Source of the DNA: Alphaproteobacteria bacterium
GTDB taxonomy: Bacteria; Pseudomonadota; Alphaproteobacteria; Rhizobiales; Beijerinckiaceae
Assembly (NCBI GenBank): GCA_016869435.1
Contig: VGEB01000015.1
Span: 1 to 41,997 of the forward strand
Direction of reading: 5' to 3'
DNA: 41,997 nucleotides
The position numbers were made by a program, and so were the translations under genes. The notes under the pieces were generated by a model that was given only the letters and a program-made list of their open reading frames with translations, ran no database searches and was not told where the DNA came from. This document shows positions 15,308 to 26,035 of this stretch, one piece after another (positions within the stretch are counted from its first letter, which is position 1; every line of letters begins with the position of its first letter).

Positions 15308-15964
15308 ATGTCCTTTTATGATCGCACTGACGCCGGACGCCGCCTCGCCGCCGAACTGCAGAAATTCAAAGGCGAGGATGTCGTCGTCTTTGCGCTGCCG
15401 CGCGGCGGCGCGCCCGTCGCCGAACCGATCGCGACCATGCTCGATGCGCCGCTTGATCTCGTGCTCGTCAGAAAGATCGGCGTGCCTTTCCAGCCGGAGC
15501 TGGCGATGGGGGCCGTGGCCGACGGCGGCAATCCGGTCGTCGTGCGCAATGACGACGTCATCGCCATGACGGATGTGAGCGACAATGAATTTCAGGAGGT
15601 TCGCGCACGCGAGCTTGAAGAGATCGAGCGTCGCCGACGACTATATCTCGGGGGCCGCCAACGACCTGACGCGAAGGGACATGTCGCCATTGTCGTCGAT
15701 GACGGCGTCGCCACGGGCGCCACGACGCGCGCGGCCTTGCGCGCCGTTCGCGCGCGCGGGCCGAAAAAGCTGGTGCTGGCCGTGCCGGTCGCGCCGCCCG
15801 ATACGCTCGAATCCCTGGAGCCTGAGGTCGACGAAATTGTTTGCCTCGAGACGCCTCGCGCCTTCGGCGCGATCGGTTTCTTCTACCGGGACTTCCGTCA
15901 GATCAGCGATGAGGAGGTGATCGAAATCCTCGATCGATGCGCCAGGAAGGCCGGCCGCGCATAA
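15308..15964 (+). CDS. Type I phosphoribosyltransferase
   Basis: This 218-residue protein has the PRPP-binding loop VAIVVDDGVATGATT (about 126-140) and the N-terminal RGGAPVAEPIA segment of type I phosphoribosyltransferases. A helical insert (about 90-120) precedes the loop. The base accepted is not evident; relatives lie beside dienelactone hydrolase-type genes and are annotated only as phosphoribosyltransferase. An AGGAAGGTGAG ribosome-binding site lies just upstream. It closes the plus-strand arm of the island, whose minus-strand arm encodes a PRPP synthase that would supply its co-substrate. Confidence 0.9.
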   Translation: MSFYDRTDAGRRLAAELQKFKGEDVVVFALPRGGAPVAEPIATMLDAPLDLVLVRKIGVPFQPELAMGAVADGGNPVVVRNDDVIAMTDVSDNEFQEVRARELEEIERRRRLYLGGRQRPDAKGHVAIVVDDGVATGATTRAALRAVRARGPKKLVLAVPVAPPDTLESLEPEVDEIVCLETPRAFGAIGFFYRDFRQISDEEVIEILDRCARKAGRA

Positions 15965-16003
15965 AAGGCCGAGAGCCAGCTCTCGACAGACGGCGACCCG
16001 AAA

Positions 16004-16020
16004 TCGGCCACATTGGCCGA
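16004..16020. other. Hairpin downstream of the phosphoribosyltransferase gene
   Basis: A perfect 7 bp stem TCGGCCA-CAT-TGGCCGA follows the operon end, with a smaller CGAGAG-CCAG-CTCTCG hairpin at 15970-15985. There is no clear U-tract on the plus strand, so a terminator role is uncertain. Confidence 0.35.
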
Positions 16021-16056
16021 AAAAGCTCGGCTTGGGGCTCTTTCGGGAGATCGGCC

Positions 16057-16626
16057 ATGCGCCACATAGGCGGATCAATAATTCTGGCGGCTCATCTCTT
16101 CGTGGCGGCGCCAGCTCATGCGTTCGACAGCCCGATCAATCGTGGCCCGCTGGCTGACTTCCTCAACGTCTTTCGCGAGCAGGCGATACCGAGGCAGGTC
16201 GTCTATTGGCGTCATCCGCAATTTAAGCGCGGAACGGTCGTCATCTCGACCAAGGATCGTCGGCTCTATTATGTGCTCGGCGATGGACGCGCGATCGAAT
16301 ACGGCGTCGGCGTGGGCCGAATGGGGTTCACCTGGTCCGGCGTGAAAACGGTTTCGCGCAAACGCGAGTGGCCGGACTGGAGTCCGCCGACTCAAATGCT
16401 CAAGCGCCGACCGGACCTGCCGCGCCACATGGCCGGCGGCATGGAAAATCCGCTTGGCGCGCGTGCGCTTTATCTTGGTTCAAGCCAATACCGCATTCAC
16501 GGCTCAAACGAGCCAGACACGATCGGCGCCGCCGTATCGTCGGGTTGCATCCGCATGACCAACAAGGACGTCGTCGATCTCTACAGCCGCGTGAAGGTGG
16601 GCACGACAGTCGTCGTGCTCAATTAA
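16057..16626 (+). CDS. L,D-transpeptidase (YkuD domain), secreted
   Basis: This 189-residue protein has a signal peptide (residues 1-22, cleaving after APAHA) and a YkuD/ErfK catalytic domain (about 58-188). The active site is intact: H148 in YRIHGSNEP and nucleophile C164 in SSGCIRM. It should act in the periplasm, forming 3-3 peptidoglycan crosslinks or attaching proteins to peptidoglycan. A GGGAG ribosome-binding site supports the ATG at 16057 over a longer frame that would overlap the previous gene. Its last 8 bp overlap the convergent yidD. Confidence 0.93.
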   Translation: MRHIGGSIILAAHLFVAAPAHAFDSPINRGPLADFLNVFREQAIPRQVVYWRHPQFKRGTVVISTKDRRLYYVLGDGRAIEYGVGVGRMGFTWSGVKTVSRKREWPDWSPPTQMLKRRPDLPRHMAGGMENPLGARALYLGSSQYRIHGSNEPDTIGAAVSSGCIRMTNKDVVDLYSRVKVGTTVVVLN

Positions 16627-16978
16627 GGCGAGTCGGTATCTGGTCGTCCTCGCTCTCGATTGACTCGCAGACCGGGCGCATGCGCCAGACTCCGTAGCGC
16701 CACGGCATGAGCGGATTGGCGTCGGCGCGCAGCGTTTCTGGCACTGGATCGAATCCCGCGCCGCCGCCGGGGCGGCAGCGGCAGACGCGCGCCAGGCCCA
16801 TCCAGCCGCCCGCCCAAAGGCCATGTTTGGCGATCGCCTCGTCGGCGTATTCCGAGCAGGTCGGCGCATAGCGGCAGAAGCGCCCGGCGATCATCGAGAA
16901 GGTGACGCGATAGAAAAGGATGAGCGCGCGCGCCGCGCGGGCGGGAAGGGATGGCGCCCTATCAGTCGGTTCAAACAC
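16619..16978 (-). CDS. yidD: Membrane protein insertion efficiency factor YidD
   Basis: This 119-residue protein shows the YidD core (about 15-85) with the Cys-rich signature RFCRYAPTCSEYADEAI and an amphipathic N-terminal helix that binds the inner membrane. It assists YidC/Sec insertion. It has a longer C-terminal tail (to QIPTRLN) than the shortest homologues. It stands alone here: rnpA, rpmH and yidC are not adjacent, which is common in alphaproteobacteria. It converges on the L,D-transpeptidase gene. Confidence 0.93.
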   Translation of the reverse strand: MFEPTDRAPSLPARAARALILFYRVTFSMIAGRFCRYAPTCSEYADEAIAKHGLWAGGWMGLARVCRCRPGGGAGFDPVPETLRADANPLMPWRYGVWRMRPVCESIESEDDQIPTRLN

Positions 16979-17165
16979 ATGCCTAACATATACCTTCGAC
17001 GCGCAGCCTACAAAGCGGAGCTAATCAGATCTCTTGACAGGAAATCATATCAACGCGATCTCGCTAAACATTCGCGTGCGGCGCACCAAGTTTTTTTTTC
17101 CTTGTCCGCTGCGGGCGGCGTGCTAGTCTAATTACCGACTGATTATTTGTTTTCGGATTTTCTCG

Positions 17166-18412
17166 ATGTTGGACGAAAGTAATTCCCCGGTCAGCGCCTC
17201 GGATGTCGTAGATAAAGCGGACCGCTTTGAATGGTCCGGAGGAAAGCTCGAACCAGGCATTGCGCTGGCGCTTTCCGGCGGCGGCTATCGCGCGATGCTG
17301 TTTCATGCCGGCGCGCTGATGCGTTTCAATGAGTTCGGTCTGCTGTCGAAAACGGCGCGCATTTCGAGCGTATCTGGGGGCTCGATCACTGCAGGAGTCC
17401 TTGCCCATCGATGGTCATCGCTCGGCGCGCCGGACGCGAACGGCGTCTACGCGAATTTCAAACAGCTTGTCGTCGACCCACTCTTTGCGTTTTCGAAACA
17501 GAACATCGATCTTATCGACGCGATTTGGGGTCGGCTGCCGTTTCGTTCGCCAGCGAATGAGGTTGCGCGCAGCTACGACAAATTTTTGTTTGGCTGCGCG
17601 ACGCTTCAGAGTCTCCCCGATACGCCGCGCTTCGTTTTTTGCGCCAGCAATCTGCAGACCGGCGTGCTGTGGCGTTTCTCCAAACTATACGCCGGCGACT
17701 ATCTAGTCGGCCGCATCGATGATCCCGCGTTTCGCCTCGCGGAGGCGGTGGCTGCGTCCTCGGCCTTTCCTCCAGTTCTATCGCCGCTCGAACTAACTCC
17801 CGGCGTTGAAGCCTTCCAAGACTGGCCGCGAAAACCAGGCGAATCCCCGCTGCCGGACATGTCCGCTTACAGGCGGCGTGTTTTGCTGGCAGACGGCGGG
17901 GCTTACGACAATCACGGGCTGGAGCCTATCGTTAAGCGCTACATGACGCTTTTCGTCAGTGACGGCGGCGCGCCCTTCGTTCGTATGGAGGATATAAACA
18001 CCGGCGAGATCAGCCAGCTTCGGCGTGTCTTCGATCTGACCGACAATCAAGTGCGCGCTCTGCGCAGGCGCGACCTCATCGCCCGCTTTGTCGACGGGCG
18101 CAACAAACTGATGAGCGGCGCCCTGAAAATCGATGGAATGGACGCTACTGCGCGTTTCGGGACTTATTGGGGAATCGACGGCGGCGTCACGGCCGGCCCC
18201 CGCCCGACGCGCTGCCGTATGACGTGGCGCAGACCGAACATCTCGCCGGACTGTCAACTCGGCTTGCCGATCTCGGCGACCACGCGTCCCGTCAGCTCGT
18301 TAACTGGGGCTACGCGATCTGCGACAGAAACATTCGCACGCATTACGTCGGCCCGCTGCCGCAGCCCGGCGCCGCGCCGACCTGGCCTTTCCCCGAGGCG
18401 CCGCTCGGCTGA
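17166..18412 (+). pseudogene. Patatin-like phospholipase, -1 frameshift near 3' end
   Basis: The first frame encodes a cytosolic patatin-like lipase with the oxyanion loop LSGGGYRAMLFHAGAL (37-52), nucleophile S73 in SVSGGSI and the catalytic Asp in LLADGGAYDN (D243), so the whole dyad is present. Around 18193-18203 the good coding signal moves to another frame: the original frame continues into an Arg/Pro-rich tail to 18446. The -1 frame reads PPPDALPYDVAQTEHLAGL and ends DLGDHASRQLVNWGYAICD and so on, stopping at 18412, a typical C terminus for this family. One missing C in the CCCCC run would explain it, so an assembly or sequencing error is likely; a true mutation or programmed slip is possible. 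The restored product would be about 415 residues. It heads a three-gene unit. Confidence 0.82.
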
Positions 18413-18447
18413 AAAGCGCCGCCAATGTTCTTTTGTGAGATTGTGAG

Positions 18448-20367
18448 ATGTCCGAGAAGTCAACCGACAAACCTTCACCCTATCCGAAACCGACGCGCCG
18501 ATATTTGCGCGGCTACGCTTTCGATCCCAGTCTCGTCACACAGTTGGAGAACGCGCCCGTTAGCGTCCTCATTTACAAGATCAAGTGGGAAGAGGCTCTC
18601 AGCGCCGGACCCTGTGGCGAATATCTTGAAGTGATCGACGTCGATCCCGCAAGCAATGCCTATTACGATCCGGTCAACCTCAACCACGCCGACATCCTCG
18701 CCCAGAACGGTCTGGCGCCTTCGGAAGGCAATCCGCAGTTCCATCAGCAGATGGTCTATGCGGTCGCGATGACGACGATTGATCGCTTCGAGCGCGCGCT
18801 GGGACGCAGAGCGTTCTGGGCCGATAACGACAATGCTGTCGCAAAAAAGCCTGAAGAAAACGGCTTCGTCGAGAAGCTGCGCATCTATCCGCATGCGCTG
18901 CGTATGGCCAATGCGTATTACAGTCGCGAAAAAATGGCCTTGCTGTTCGGATATTTCCCCGGAACTGCCGATCGCTCGGCGGGCGTCTATCCTGAAGGCC
19001 TTGTCTTCACATGCCTCTCGCATGACATCATCGCGCACGAGACGACCCACGCGCTGCTTGACGGATTTCACCCCTATCTGCTGACGCCGGACAGCAGAAA
19101 CCGCGAAGCGCTCGCCTTTCACGAGGCGTTCGCGGATATCGTGGCTCTTTTCCAGCATTTCAGTTTTCCGGAAGTGCTCGAGCATCAGATCGCGCATACG
19201 CGTGGCGATCTGAGCAGCGAAAATCTCCTCGGCCAGCTCGCAACGCAGTTCGGACATGCGCGCGGCATGCGAGGCGCACTACGCGACGCCATAGGCTACT
19301 ACGACCAAAAGAAGCAGAGATGGGTCAAGCGGGAGCCGGATCCGCTCGCGGTGATCTCGACCAAGGAAGTTCATGCGCTCGGCGCAATTCTTGTCGCGGC
19401 TGTTTTTGATGCATTCCTGTCGATCTATCGTAACCGTTCGCTAGACCTGATGCGGCTCGCGAGCAACGGCACTGGAATGCTCGCCCCCGGCGCGCTCCAC
19501 CCCGATCTTGTTCGACGCCTTGCGGAAGAAGCAGCGCGGTCCTCATCGCATGTATTGAACATGTGCATCCGCGCCCTCGACTATTGTCCGCCGCTGGACT
19601 TACGCTTCGGCGAATTTTTGCGCGCGCTGATCACGGCCGATCTCGATCTGATGCCCGAAGACGAGTTGAAATATCGCGTCGCCTTCATCGAGGCTTTTCG
19701 GCGCAGGGGCATCTATCCGTCGGACGTACGCACACTTTCTGAAGACAGTCTGCGCTGGGGCACCCCGGATGAGGATCCGGTCATGACAACTAACTCGACG
19801 GCTCGAAAGCGGATCAAAGCCACGCTGAAGAAGTTTGCGGAAGAAAATGATGTGCGCAGTCGGATAGACAAGTTGCGCCATCTTCAGGAGCGAAAGAAAG
19901 TTTGGCTTGAGACGCGGCGGATTGAGGAAGAGCTGAGTGGGGCGCTCTCTGATTTAATCCAACCGGATACCCAGTTGCAGAAGCTTCTTGGTCTCACGAT
20001 CGCCCCCCCGAAAGACCTTACGCTGATTGATCCCACCAAGCCATTTCGTGTCAACGGGCTTCGTGTTGCGAGACGGCTGCGGGATGACGGCCGCGCCGTC
20101 AATCATGTATTTTTCACGCTGCTTCAGAAAGCTGTCTGGAAAATGCCAGACTCGGGCGATTCGCGAGAGCAGATTTTACGGGCTGGCTCCATGGTCGTGT
20201 GGGACCTCGAAGCCTCCGAAATTACCTATGTGATCCGAAAAGGTCTGACGCATCAACAGCAGGTCAGAGAGGCTCAACTGGACGAGGATGATGCCATGTC
20301 CCTGGCAGACACTTATTTCGGCGCGCAGAAAGAACTCTTCGCGCAGCTGCACCACAGCGGCGCATAA
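18448..20367 (+). CDS. Cytosolic gluzincin-type zinc metallopeptidase with long C-terminal region
   Basis: This 639-residue protein contains HETTH (197-201) in the context CLSHDIIAHETTHALLDG, followed by HEAFADIVALF (225-235), where E226 and D230 form the third-ligand ExxxD motif of thermolysin-like gluzincins. It lacks a signal peptide, so it should act in the cytosol, unlike secreted thermolysins. The region after about residue 400 is rich in charged helix (about 440-500) and ends in a beta-like segment (about 530-610) that I do not recognise; it may recognise a target. It starts 35 bp after the patatin gene and ends 11 bp before the MBL gene, so the three should be co-expressed. A peptidase that cuts a cell protein on a trigger is one reading (inference). 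Confidence 0.85.
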   Translation: MSEKSTDKPSPYPKPTRRYLRGYAFDPSLVTQLENAPVSVLIYKIKWEEALSAGPCGEYLEVIDVDPASNAYYDPVNLNHADILAQNGLAPSEGNPQFHQQMVYAVAMTTIDRFERALGRRAFWADNDNAVAKKPEENGFVEKLRIYPHALRMANAYYSREKMALLFGYFPGTADRSAGVYPEGLVFTCLSHDIIAHETTHALLDGFHPYLLTPDSRNREALAFHEAFADIVALFQHFSFPEVLEHQIAHTRGDLSSENLLGQLATQFGHARGMRGALRDAIGYYDQKKQRWVKREPDPLAVISTKEVHALGAILVAAVFDAFLSIYRNRSLDLMRLASNGTGMLAPGALHPDLVRRLAEEAARSSSHVLNMCIRALDYCPPLDLRFGEFLRALITADLDLMPEDELKYRVAFIEAFRRRGIYPSDVRTLSEDSLRWGTPDEDPVMTTNSTARKRIKATLKKFAEENDVRSRIDKLRHLQERKKVWLETRRIEEELSGALSDLIQPDTQLQKLLGLTIAPPKDLTLIDPTKPFRVNGLRVARRLRDDGRAVNHVFFTLLQKAVWKMPDSGDSREQILRAGSMVVWDLEASEITYVIRKGLTHQQQVREAQLDEDDAMSLADTYFGAQKELFAQLHHSGA

Positions 20368-20378
20368 GGCGAAAGACC

Positions 20379-21794
20379 ATGGCGAGACCAGCAAGAAAAA
20401 GCCGCTCATCCAACGGCAGGATGTCCGCTTCTTCCGATTTCCGCATGCGCGTTCGCATGTATCGTCACGGCCTCGGCGACTGCTTTCTGCTGACCTTCCC
20501 GCGGGCAGGTCAGGCGCCTTTTCAGATTCTCATCGATTGCGGCGCACTGCACCGGAACGCTGCTGAGATGACGGCGCTGGTCGAAGAAATCCGCGACACA
20601 ATCAAACGCGAAAACGGCAGCGAAAACGCGCGTCTCGATGTGGTTGTCGGCACGCATGAGCACAAGGACCATTTGAGCGGCTTCAATCAGGCGCGCGATA
20701 TTTTTGAGAATGAATTCGACTTCGGCGAGGTGTGGCTCGCCTGGACAGAAGATCTTTCGCAAAAGGAAATAATGGCGATCAAGAAGGCGCGGCGGAAGGC
20801 CGCAGAAAAGATTCGGGAAGTTATGCGATTGAATGCCAATCTGGCGGCATCGTTGGATGATGTCTCCTCGCTGATGGCGTTCTCTGCCGATGACGACGAT
20901 GGTGTTGGAACCCAAAAAGTCTCTGACGCCCTGGAATATCTCAAAGAGCGAGGCCGCAGGCGCGGGAGCAAGCTACGATTCCTTAAGCCAGGCGAAGAGC
21001 CTCGCGCGCTCAAGGACGTCGATGATGTCAGGGTTTTTGTGCTCGGTCCGCCGCTTGATCCGATTTTGCTCAAATCGAGCGAAGTGACGGAAGCAATGAA
21101 ACGTGACGGCACGATCTATCACCTTGCGTCGTCCGGGCTTTCCGGCGTCGAGGCGCTGGCGGCCGCAGCCCGCGCGCCGGATGACCCCCTCGCGTTGCAA
21201 GCGCAGCCTTTTTCCTCGGCCGTGAGCAAGAAGAATTTCAAGAAGGCTCCAAATTACGAAAAAGAACCATGGCGACGCATCGACGGCGATTGGATGAGCG
21301 CATTCGGTCAGCTCGCGCTCGATCTCGATAACGACACGAACAACAGCAGCCTCGTGCTGGCTTTCGAGTTTGAGAGCACCGGCGAGGTGCTGCTGTTCGC
21401 GGCGGACGCTCAGGTCGGAAGCTGGCTTTCATGGCGAAAGCTCAACCTAAAGGACGGGCGCAAGGAGATGCCGGCGCTGGAGCTCCTGGGGCGCACCGTA
21501 TTTTACAAGGTCGGACACCACTGCAGCCACAATGCGACGCTTCGAAACAATGGTCTCGAGCTGATGCAGGATGATCGCCTTGTCGCCTTCATTCCGCTGG
21601 ACGTAGAAACCGCGAGAAAGCAGGGAACCAAAGGTTGGGAGATGCCGGCGAAGCCCTTGTTAAAGGCCTTGAAGAAGCACACCGGCGACAAAGTGGTGAT
21701 TTCGGACGCCAGCGCGAAGAACCCAGTGTCCGCGGAGGCGCACAAAGCAGGCGTAGTCGCAACGGATACCTACATCGACTACGTCCTTCGCTGA
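20379..21794 (+). CDS. Metallo-beta-lactamase-fold hydrolase (ComEC-like)
   Basis: This 471-residue protein has an MBL fold resembling the ComEC/Rec2 C-terminal domain. Visible elements are the opening YRHGLGDCFLLTF with LIDCG (D53), the metal motif THEHKDHLSGF (HxHxDH at 93-98) and a late FAADAQVGSW and VGHHCSHNA that supply further ligands. A charged helical insert of roughly 100 residues lies between the metal motif and the second half. It has no signal peptide or membrane segment, so it is not a DNA-uptake channel; a nuclease or phosphodiesterase activity is plausible. The ATG at 20379 gives the longest form; ATGs at 20421 and 20445 are possible. It is last in the cassette. Confidence 0.85.
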   Translation: MARPARKSRSSNGRMSASSDFRMRVRMYRHGLGDCFLLTFPRAGQAPFQILIDCGALHRNAAEMTALVEEIRDTIKRENGSENARLDVVVGTHEHKDHLSGFNQARDIFENEFDFGEVWLAWTEDLSQKEIMAIKKARRKAAEKIREVMRLNANLAASLDDVSSLMAFSADDDDGVGTQKVSDALEYLKERGRRRGSKLRFLKPGEEPRALKDVDDVRVFVLGPPLDPILLKSSEVTEAMKRDGTIYHLASSGLSGVEALAAAARAPDDPLALQAQPFSSAVSKKNFKKAPNYEKEPWRRIDGDWMSAFGQLALDLDNDTNNSSLVLAFEFESTGEVLLFAADAQVGSWLSWRKLNLKDGRKEMPALELLGRTVFYKVGHHCSHNATLRNNGLELMQDDRLVAFIPLDVETARKQGTKGWEMPAKPLLKALKKHTGDKVVISDASAKNPVSAEAHKAGVVATDTYIDYVLR

Positions 21795-21809
21795 CGATTC
21801 AAAACAATA

Positions 21810-21831
21810 GGCCGCCCCTTTCGGGGCGGCC
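21810..21831. terminator. Bidirectional intrinsic terminator
   Basis: A perfect 9 bp GC stem (GGCCGCCCC / GGGGCGGCC) with a TTTC loop lies between the convergent MBL gene and rpoC. On the minus strand it is followed by TATTGTTTT, a fair U-rich tract for ending the rplJ-rpoC transcript; on the plus strand by TTGTCGATTTT. Confidence 0.88.
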
Positions 21832-21859
21832 TTGTCGATTTTCAGCGTCCAATGCGATT

Positions 21860-26035
<4,176 letters not shown>

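Follow-up and report, generated by a model that had tools for sequence, protein, structure and literature searches.

What would a lipase, a peptidase and a nuclease-like hydrolase do together between two housekeeping genes of an alphaproteobacterium? The question is raised by a stretch of 41,997 nucleotides from a member of the Beijerinckiaceae (contig VGEB01000015.1, assembly GCA_016869435.1; hereafter referred to as the window), in which the open reading frame (ORF) map contains three plus-strand ORFs encoding a patatin-like phospholipase (17166..18446), a gluzincin peptidase of 639 residues (18448..20367) and a ComEC-type metallo-β-lactamase (MBL) hydrolase of 471 residues (20379..21794). 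A first-pass annotation of the sequence had described these three packed, co-directional genes, as our map confirms, and had read them as one operon attacking lipid, protein and a phosphodiester substrate side by side, in the manner of abortive defence or conflict systems. Our analysis upholds that reading in part: the view that the genes form a system is supported, but its logic changes. We think it rather likely that the cassette is a horizontally acquired, conditionally triggered self-destruct device, in which the peptidase unlocks a gated MBL nuclease and the patatin is interchangeable; it is probably directed against phages or plasmids. The observations underlying this proposal are the gene order, the conservation of the peptidase-MBL pair, the predicted folds, the catalytic motifs, the insertions in the MBL protein, a near-invariant Pro-Phe dipeptide within them, the swapping of partner genes and the sporadic occurrence of the cassette.

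Relatives of the peptidase were confirmed on genome contigs at least 541 times, and our survey set consisted of the 80 closest of these matches, which span many phyla by their record titles, together with six plasmid loci and the window (87 loci). The gene following the peptidase could be assessed in 83 of these, since the contig ended too early in the remaining four, and an MBL gene directly followed in 82 of the 83 (75 by ORF map and 7 as further open frames). Because the loci were chosen as the closest matches, the plasmid loci and the window, this proportion describes close relatives. In a reciprocal case, a divergent MBL gene in genome G456 has a peptidase gene directly upstream with a 4-bp overlap; a distant peptidase (L209, 33% identity) is likewise accompanied by an MBL gene, and an astacin-like gene is its partner. 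One contig (L112) carries two peptidase-MBL pairs in tandem. When up to two co-directional genes were taken on either side of the pair (111 neighbours, the window left out), Patatin was the commonest Pfam family with 14 members, the next families having 3 each; given six patatin matches in the window's genome and an estimated 3000 or so genes, we estimate that chance would place well under one patatin among 111 neighbours. The claim that the three genes belong together is borne out by these results: neither rare co-occurrence nor a known housekeeping pathway, either of which would have spoken against it, was encountered, the pair being nearly obligatory among close relatives and patatin its commonest extra partner.

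The window peptidase had no match in Pfam or PADLOC up to an E value of 1 and none above cut-off in NCBIfam, whereas fold matches to its AlphaFold model indicated a thermolysin/fungalysin fold. The zinc residues of its HETTH and HEAFAD motifs (19036..19137; H197, E198 and H201, and H225, E226 and D230) were invariant in 49 aligned peptidases and align with the zinc site of thermolysin. It shares with the M4 (thermolysin) and M36 (fungalysin) families the predicted fold and the HExxH-plus-Glu zinc site, and a conserved histidine at the position expected for the thermolysin catalytic histidine may extend this likeness. It differs from them in that it does not appear to be a secreted zymogen. The fold alignment, which pairs residue 18 of the model with residue 1 of mature M36 chains, leaves no propeptide at the N-terminus, and inspection by eye, our only basis here, revealed no signal peptide, so that the enzyme is probably cytosolic. 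It also carries a 200-residue C-terminal extension (approximately residues 435–639; 19750..20364) without Pfam match and barely covered by the fold matches. An N-terminal subtilase domain was found by profile in 17 of the 21 long peptidase ORFs of the survey; 16 of these 17 showed every element of the D/H/S motif pattern (L108 lacked the His motif by the pattern used), and both of two long ORFs scanned against Pfam matched S8. In another long ORF, a 1262-residue fusion with two HExxH motifs (L131:8066-11851), an M4-like stretch (Pfam 6e-4, below cut-off) takes the place of the subtilase.

The MBL protein consists of a ComEC-type nuclease domain and about 200 extra residues, most of them in two blocks between the metal motifs, whose spacing was 207–290 residues in the MBLs of this family versus 56 in one ComEC-like frame. 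The residues of its HEHKDH metal motif (20655..20672; H93, H95, D97 and H98) were invariant in 54 aligned MBLs. Insertion 1 (approximately residues 125–196; 20751..20966), which exceeds the ComEC spacing, is poorly conserved, and insertion 2 (approximately residues 226–298; 21054..21272) has few conserved residues; both are candidate gate loops. The confidence of the model, expressed as the predicted local distance difference test (pLDDT), was low near residues 171–180 in insertion 1 and over residues 251–300 in insertion 2, where it averaged 50–53. Within insertion 2, at residues 276–278 with pLDDT values below 50, lies the dipeptide P277-F278 (21207..21212): its proline is kept in 74 and its phenylalanine in all of 75 MBLs, which makes it a candidate cleavage or docking site. 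Position 168 of insertion 1 is Phe or Leu in 70 of the 75 (43 Phe and 27 Leu). In profile searches, the protein matched LmuA of PADLOC (4.2e-13) and, far under the respective cut-offs of 220 and 420 bits, the 6A-MBL (1.9e-10, 40.4 bits) and Avs1a (1.2e-6, 27.6 bits) models of NCBIfam.

An MBL nuclease held by insertions and adjoining a protease has precedents. A recent study (PMC12799240, Tuck et al. Science 2025) showed two insertions in the ComEC-like MBL nuclease of one Hachiman and of one AVAST system; their conserved Ile sites are cleaved by a trypsin-like protease that accompanies the nuclease, and the Hachiman enzyme degrades DNA once cleaved. A comparable nuclease, with Gly at the conserved sites, is activated in Canu by a caspase complex. 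The forms that the study describes with a trypsin-like protease are a HamM/HamA fusion, Avs1a/Avs1b, Lamassu and DRT. Its main text uses none of the terms metallopeptidase, metalloprotease, patatin, phospholipase and subtilisin, yet Fig. 4A and fig. S2 cite 'other diverse' protease families. As far as these accounts go, our cassette resembles the trypsin-gated pairs in that a ComEC-type MBL gene with its metal motifs adjoins a protease gene, that the MBL has two insertions with low-confidence loops, the second of which retains a residue pair, and that the partner genes vary. It differs in that the protease is a gluzincin metallopeptidase rather than an enzyme of the trypsin or caspase class, that the order is protease then MBL, that the loops retain Pro-Phe in the second and mostly Phe or Leu in the first where the described pairs have Ile, and that the cassette has no Hachiman, AVAST or reverse transcriptase gene; its MBL insertions are also longer than those of the three Avs1a-like proteins that we compared. 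In Canu (CanABC), by the same source, a separate protease gene likewise precedes that of the gated MBL, but this protease is a caspase with an immunoglobulin-like domain and the sites are Gly. Because its peptidase has a thermolysin/fungalysin fold, we place the cassette outside the described subtypes, as a variant of them. Several memberships were ruled out individually: AVAST type 1 by the Avs1a score and the lack of an ATPase in the cassette, the 6A-MBL system by its score, Canu by the lack of a caspase, and CBASS by the lack of a CD-NTase cyclase among the three genes and of any PADLOC match in ten flanking ORFs.

It is by analogy that we propose unlocking by a protease: the nuclease fold agrees, two insertions are present, one with a near-invariant residue pair, and the adjoining protease represents a third class. 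The ComEC-type nuclease would be held inactive by the two inserted loops. Upon a signal, the cytosolic thermolysin/fungalysin-fold peptidase would cut these loops, the candidate sites being just ahead of Phe278 in loop 2 and in the vicinity of Phe168 in loop 1. The DNase thus released would kill the cell. Thermolysin-type enzymes prefer to cut before bulky hydrophobic residues, and Phe278 fits as a cut site for this reason. The patatin may be an interchangeable third component, acting either as a second, membrane-attacking effector or as the sensor that starts the reaction. A wider scheme, possible but tentative, is a layered zymogen cascade, in which exchangeable first components (the fused subtilase, an adjacent caspase, the astacin-like gene product, patatin, a Tle1-like lipase or an SMC ATPase being candidates) would activate the conserved thermolysin-type peptidase, which in turn would cut the gate loops of the MBL and possibly further pro-enzymes, in the way that one protease acts on the next in the complement and clotting systems of animals.

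The distribution of the cassette is sporadic. Of the 39 genomes of the genus, 3 carry the MBL, and of the 249 of the order, 26 match the peptidase at E values up to 1e-3, weak matches included; 16 of these 26, the window's own among them, had matches below 1e-25. Plasmid searches returned 69 records, and viral contigs yielded 5 weak relatives with 27–32% identity. In the window, the cassette is inserted at an otherwise short intergenic site between yidD and the ORF at 21860-26035, which we take, by eye, to be rpoC; the first-pass annotation had likewise placed it between housekeeping genes. The ends of yidD and rpoC lie on one contig in 30 of the 39 same-genus genomes, the window's included. 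Measured between the matched ends, they are 4881 bp apart in the window versus about 60–1033 bp in 26 others, and more than 150 kb apart in three. The variation of this interval (16978-21860 in the window) over about 60–1033 bp elsewhere, as in G443, G442, G467 and G448, may mark a small insertion hotspot.

Several observations weigh against the proposal that the peptidase unlocks the MBL nuclease in a defence reaction. One testable surveyed locus (L125) has no MBL gene, and neither have two distant peptidases of about 35% identity (L207 and L208); there, a caspase-domain gene lies directly upstream (Pfam 1.2e-21 and 6e-12), which suggests a caspase-metallopeptidase pair, reminiscent of Canu but lacking the MBL. 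On a Rhizobium plasmid (L150:8504-13180), an S8-fused peptidase is followed by short hypothetical genes instead of an annotated MBL. Loop 1 contains no invariant residue among the 75 MBLs, Pro-Phe also occurs within the corresponding stretch of two MBL proteins outside the family (L188 and L190), and the dipeptide might serve as a plug or for docking instead of being cut. The nearest rows to the window peptidase in the tree are six from Acidobacteriota (support 99), none with a patatin beside the pair by profile, and the frameshift of the window patatin, described below, may be real decay or a sequencing error. The neighbours include genes apparently unrelated to defence, namely a transporter, TonB receptors, PhoD and a GMC oxidoreductase. 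PADLOC found no match in the ten flanking ORFs of the window, those ten being all that this result covers. Nor were defence islands, which the first-pass annotation had suggested looking for, enriched around ten chromosomal copies: at E values up to 1e-15, PADLOC reported 7 families for 109 genes (all non-system genes below 1500 residues in the ten regions) versus 10 for 108 genes from ten control regions of the same contigs (the longest that fitted the size limit, from 155), these outputs being counts of families, not of distinct genes. The mad3 tally, 5 of 109 versus 2 of 108, is too low for any conclusion.

The plasmid copies, whose neighbourhoods were read without a control, point in the other direction. 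Of the 12 plasmid regions fetched, 11 were annotated. Patatin-peptidase-MBL copies were found near CBASS and DUF1837-helicase genes at one locus, near a CBASS with SAVED at another, and near a DUF1837-helicase and a restriction endonuclease at a third, and an S8-fused copy adjoins SIR2 genes; at least two of the 11, L150 among them, show no named defence gene. The patatin itself recalls CapV of CBASS, as it is a patatin lipase adjoining defence-type genes in some relatives, but the window cassette has no cyclase and the patatin travels with the peptidase-MBL pair. A defence role is therefore plausible by mechanism and by some plasmid neighbours, without support from location; it is put more weakly here than in the abortive-defence logic first suggested for the cassette.

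The rival explanation that survives best concerns the patatin, which could be a dead passenger in a decaying local cassette where only the peptidase-MBL pair matters. The window patatin matches Pfam Patatin (2.4e-15) and PLA2_B (2.5e-6), and its SVSGGS nucleophile elbow and DGG motif, seen by eye, form a catalytic core that precedes a frameshift: the patatins of five relatives (L041, L076, L102, L122 and L136) follow one frame as far as 18176 and continue in a different one from about 18206, so that the C-terminal part, which is conserved, is out of frame in this assembly (18176..18206). The earlier statement that all three catalytic motifs are intact holds for the invariant motifs of the peptidase and the MBL and for the patatin motif pair, with the reservation that the patatin is frameshifted after its core. 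The absence of an adjacent patatin from the nearest peptidase relatives also fits a passenger. Against this, intact relatives exist, among them the patatin-peptidase-MBL operon of Rhizobium leguminosarum 248 (L041), and an indel in a GC-rich run may stem from sequencing. Another genome of the genus, G299, also has its own pair, with a divergent patatin gene upstream. No partner family is commoner than Patatin, whose loci fall into four phyla as judged from record titles (Pseudomonadota, Bacteroidota, Planctomycetota and Eremiobacterota). On a tree of 83 peptidases, which omits four of the 87 loci (the patatin locus L136 among them) and labels L131, long without S8, with the S8 group, the patatin label required 11 changes among the rows not counted as fused; patatin therefore seems to have been recruited or lost repeatedly. 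Taken together, a dead passenger is an unlikely account, though one to be kept in view.

A non-defence device, by which environmental bacteria might for instance scavenge nutrients, turn over DNA or lyse in a programmed manner, with the MBL as a competence-like nuclease, would agree with the lack of PADLOC enrichment at chromosomal copies, with the unmatched flanks of the window and with the hemocyanin/tyrosinase-like, amidohydrolase and PhoD genes among the neighbours. We nevertheless hold it to be rather improbable in view of the sporadic presence in the order and the genus, the insertion at a short intergenic site, the 69 plasmid records, and the single-locus links to LmuB, CBASS, DUF1837-helicase and caspase genes. 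Three independent hydrolases attacking lipid, protein and nucleic acid in parallel, none activating another, as first proposed, would account for the conserved catalytic motifs and for the recurrence of the three genes together in several phyla. However, the MBL gene nearly always adjoins the peptidase gene and its product has two gate-like insertions and, within them, a near-invariant dipeptide, features that would be superfluous in effectors acting in parallel. Moreover, a patatin directly adjoins the pair in only 15 of 69 non-fused loci (13 before and 2 after it, the window included and a 1739-residue 'patatin' at L071 left out), leaving 54 without. A protease that unlocks a nuclease, accompanied by an exchangeable third component, suits the anatomy better than parallel attacks on three substrates do, and we give the latter little credence. 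A Lamassu system (LmuA/LmuB/LmuC) of the hydrolase-protease type is scarcely tenable, since, despite the LmuA match and a Hymenobacter relative whose metallopeptidase-MBL pair follows an LmuB-like SMC ATPase (L038:5565-7973, PADLOC 4.2e-24), the window cassette comprises only patatin, peptidase and MBL, with the patatin where LmuB would stand, and SMC_N occurs in only 3 of the 111 neighbours; membership is thus refuted for the window, and Lamassu remains a mechanistic cousin. The Hymenobacter locus itself is a candidate Lamassu subtype with a metallopeptidase in place of the trypsin-like protease.

Other partner genes recur less often. DUF2235/Tle1-like lipase genes (2 of the 111 neighbours) adjoin the MBL gene in L152 and lie close by in L153 and in L037, the subtilase-fused version of Methylorubrum extorquens CM4. 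Hemocyanin-like, amidohydrolase and transglutaminase genes are also found among the neighbours and may be unrelated. Hemocyanin/tyrosinase-like genes directly follow the MBL gene at L117:13560-15545 and L134:13401-15347; arthropod proteins of this kind are protease-activated, and an activation link to the cassette is conceivable. A transglutaminase-elicitor-like gene (L108:12662-14212) starts 41 bp after a subtilase-fused pair. In the window, the leader between yidD and the cassette (16979..17165) is AT-rich, as first noted: the GC content is 50% at 16950-17249, mostly 53–61% within the cassette and mostly 60–70% in the flanks. A promoter scan of this leader found no sigma-70-like promoter. 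The terminator reported after the cassette corresponds to a hairpin with a 10-bp stem and a 4-base loop (21809..21832), ahead of rpoC. Upstream, the 3′ ends of the YidD gene (16619-16978) and of an L,D-transpeptidase gene (15937-16626) overlap by 8 bp.

The theme of a protease-gated nuclease has been described already; what would be new here is its appearance with a metallopeptidase class and with exchangeable partners. This version is widespread, yet Pfam, NCBIfam and PADLOC hold no model that matches the window peptidase above cut-off, and some neighbouring entries annotated as 'hypothetical protein', 'S8 family serine peptidase' or 'MBL fold metallo-hydrolase' are probably parts of such cassettes. 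The proposal yields a sharp prediction, centred on one near-invariant Pro-Phe in a low-confidence loop. If it is true, proteolytic unlocking of nucleases has arisen with three or more unrelated classes of protease (trypsin-like, caspase and thermolysin-like), and it would suggest that protease-protease chains act in bacterial immunity.
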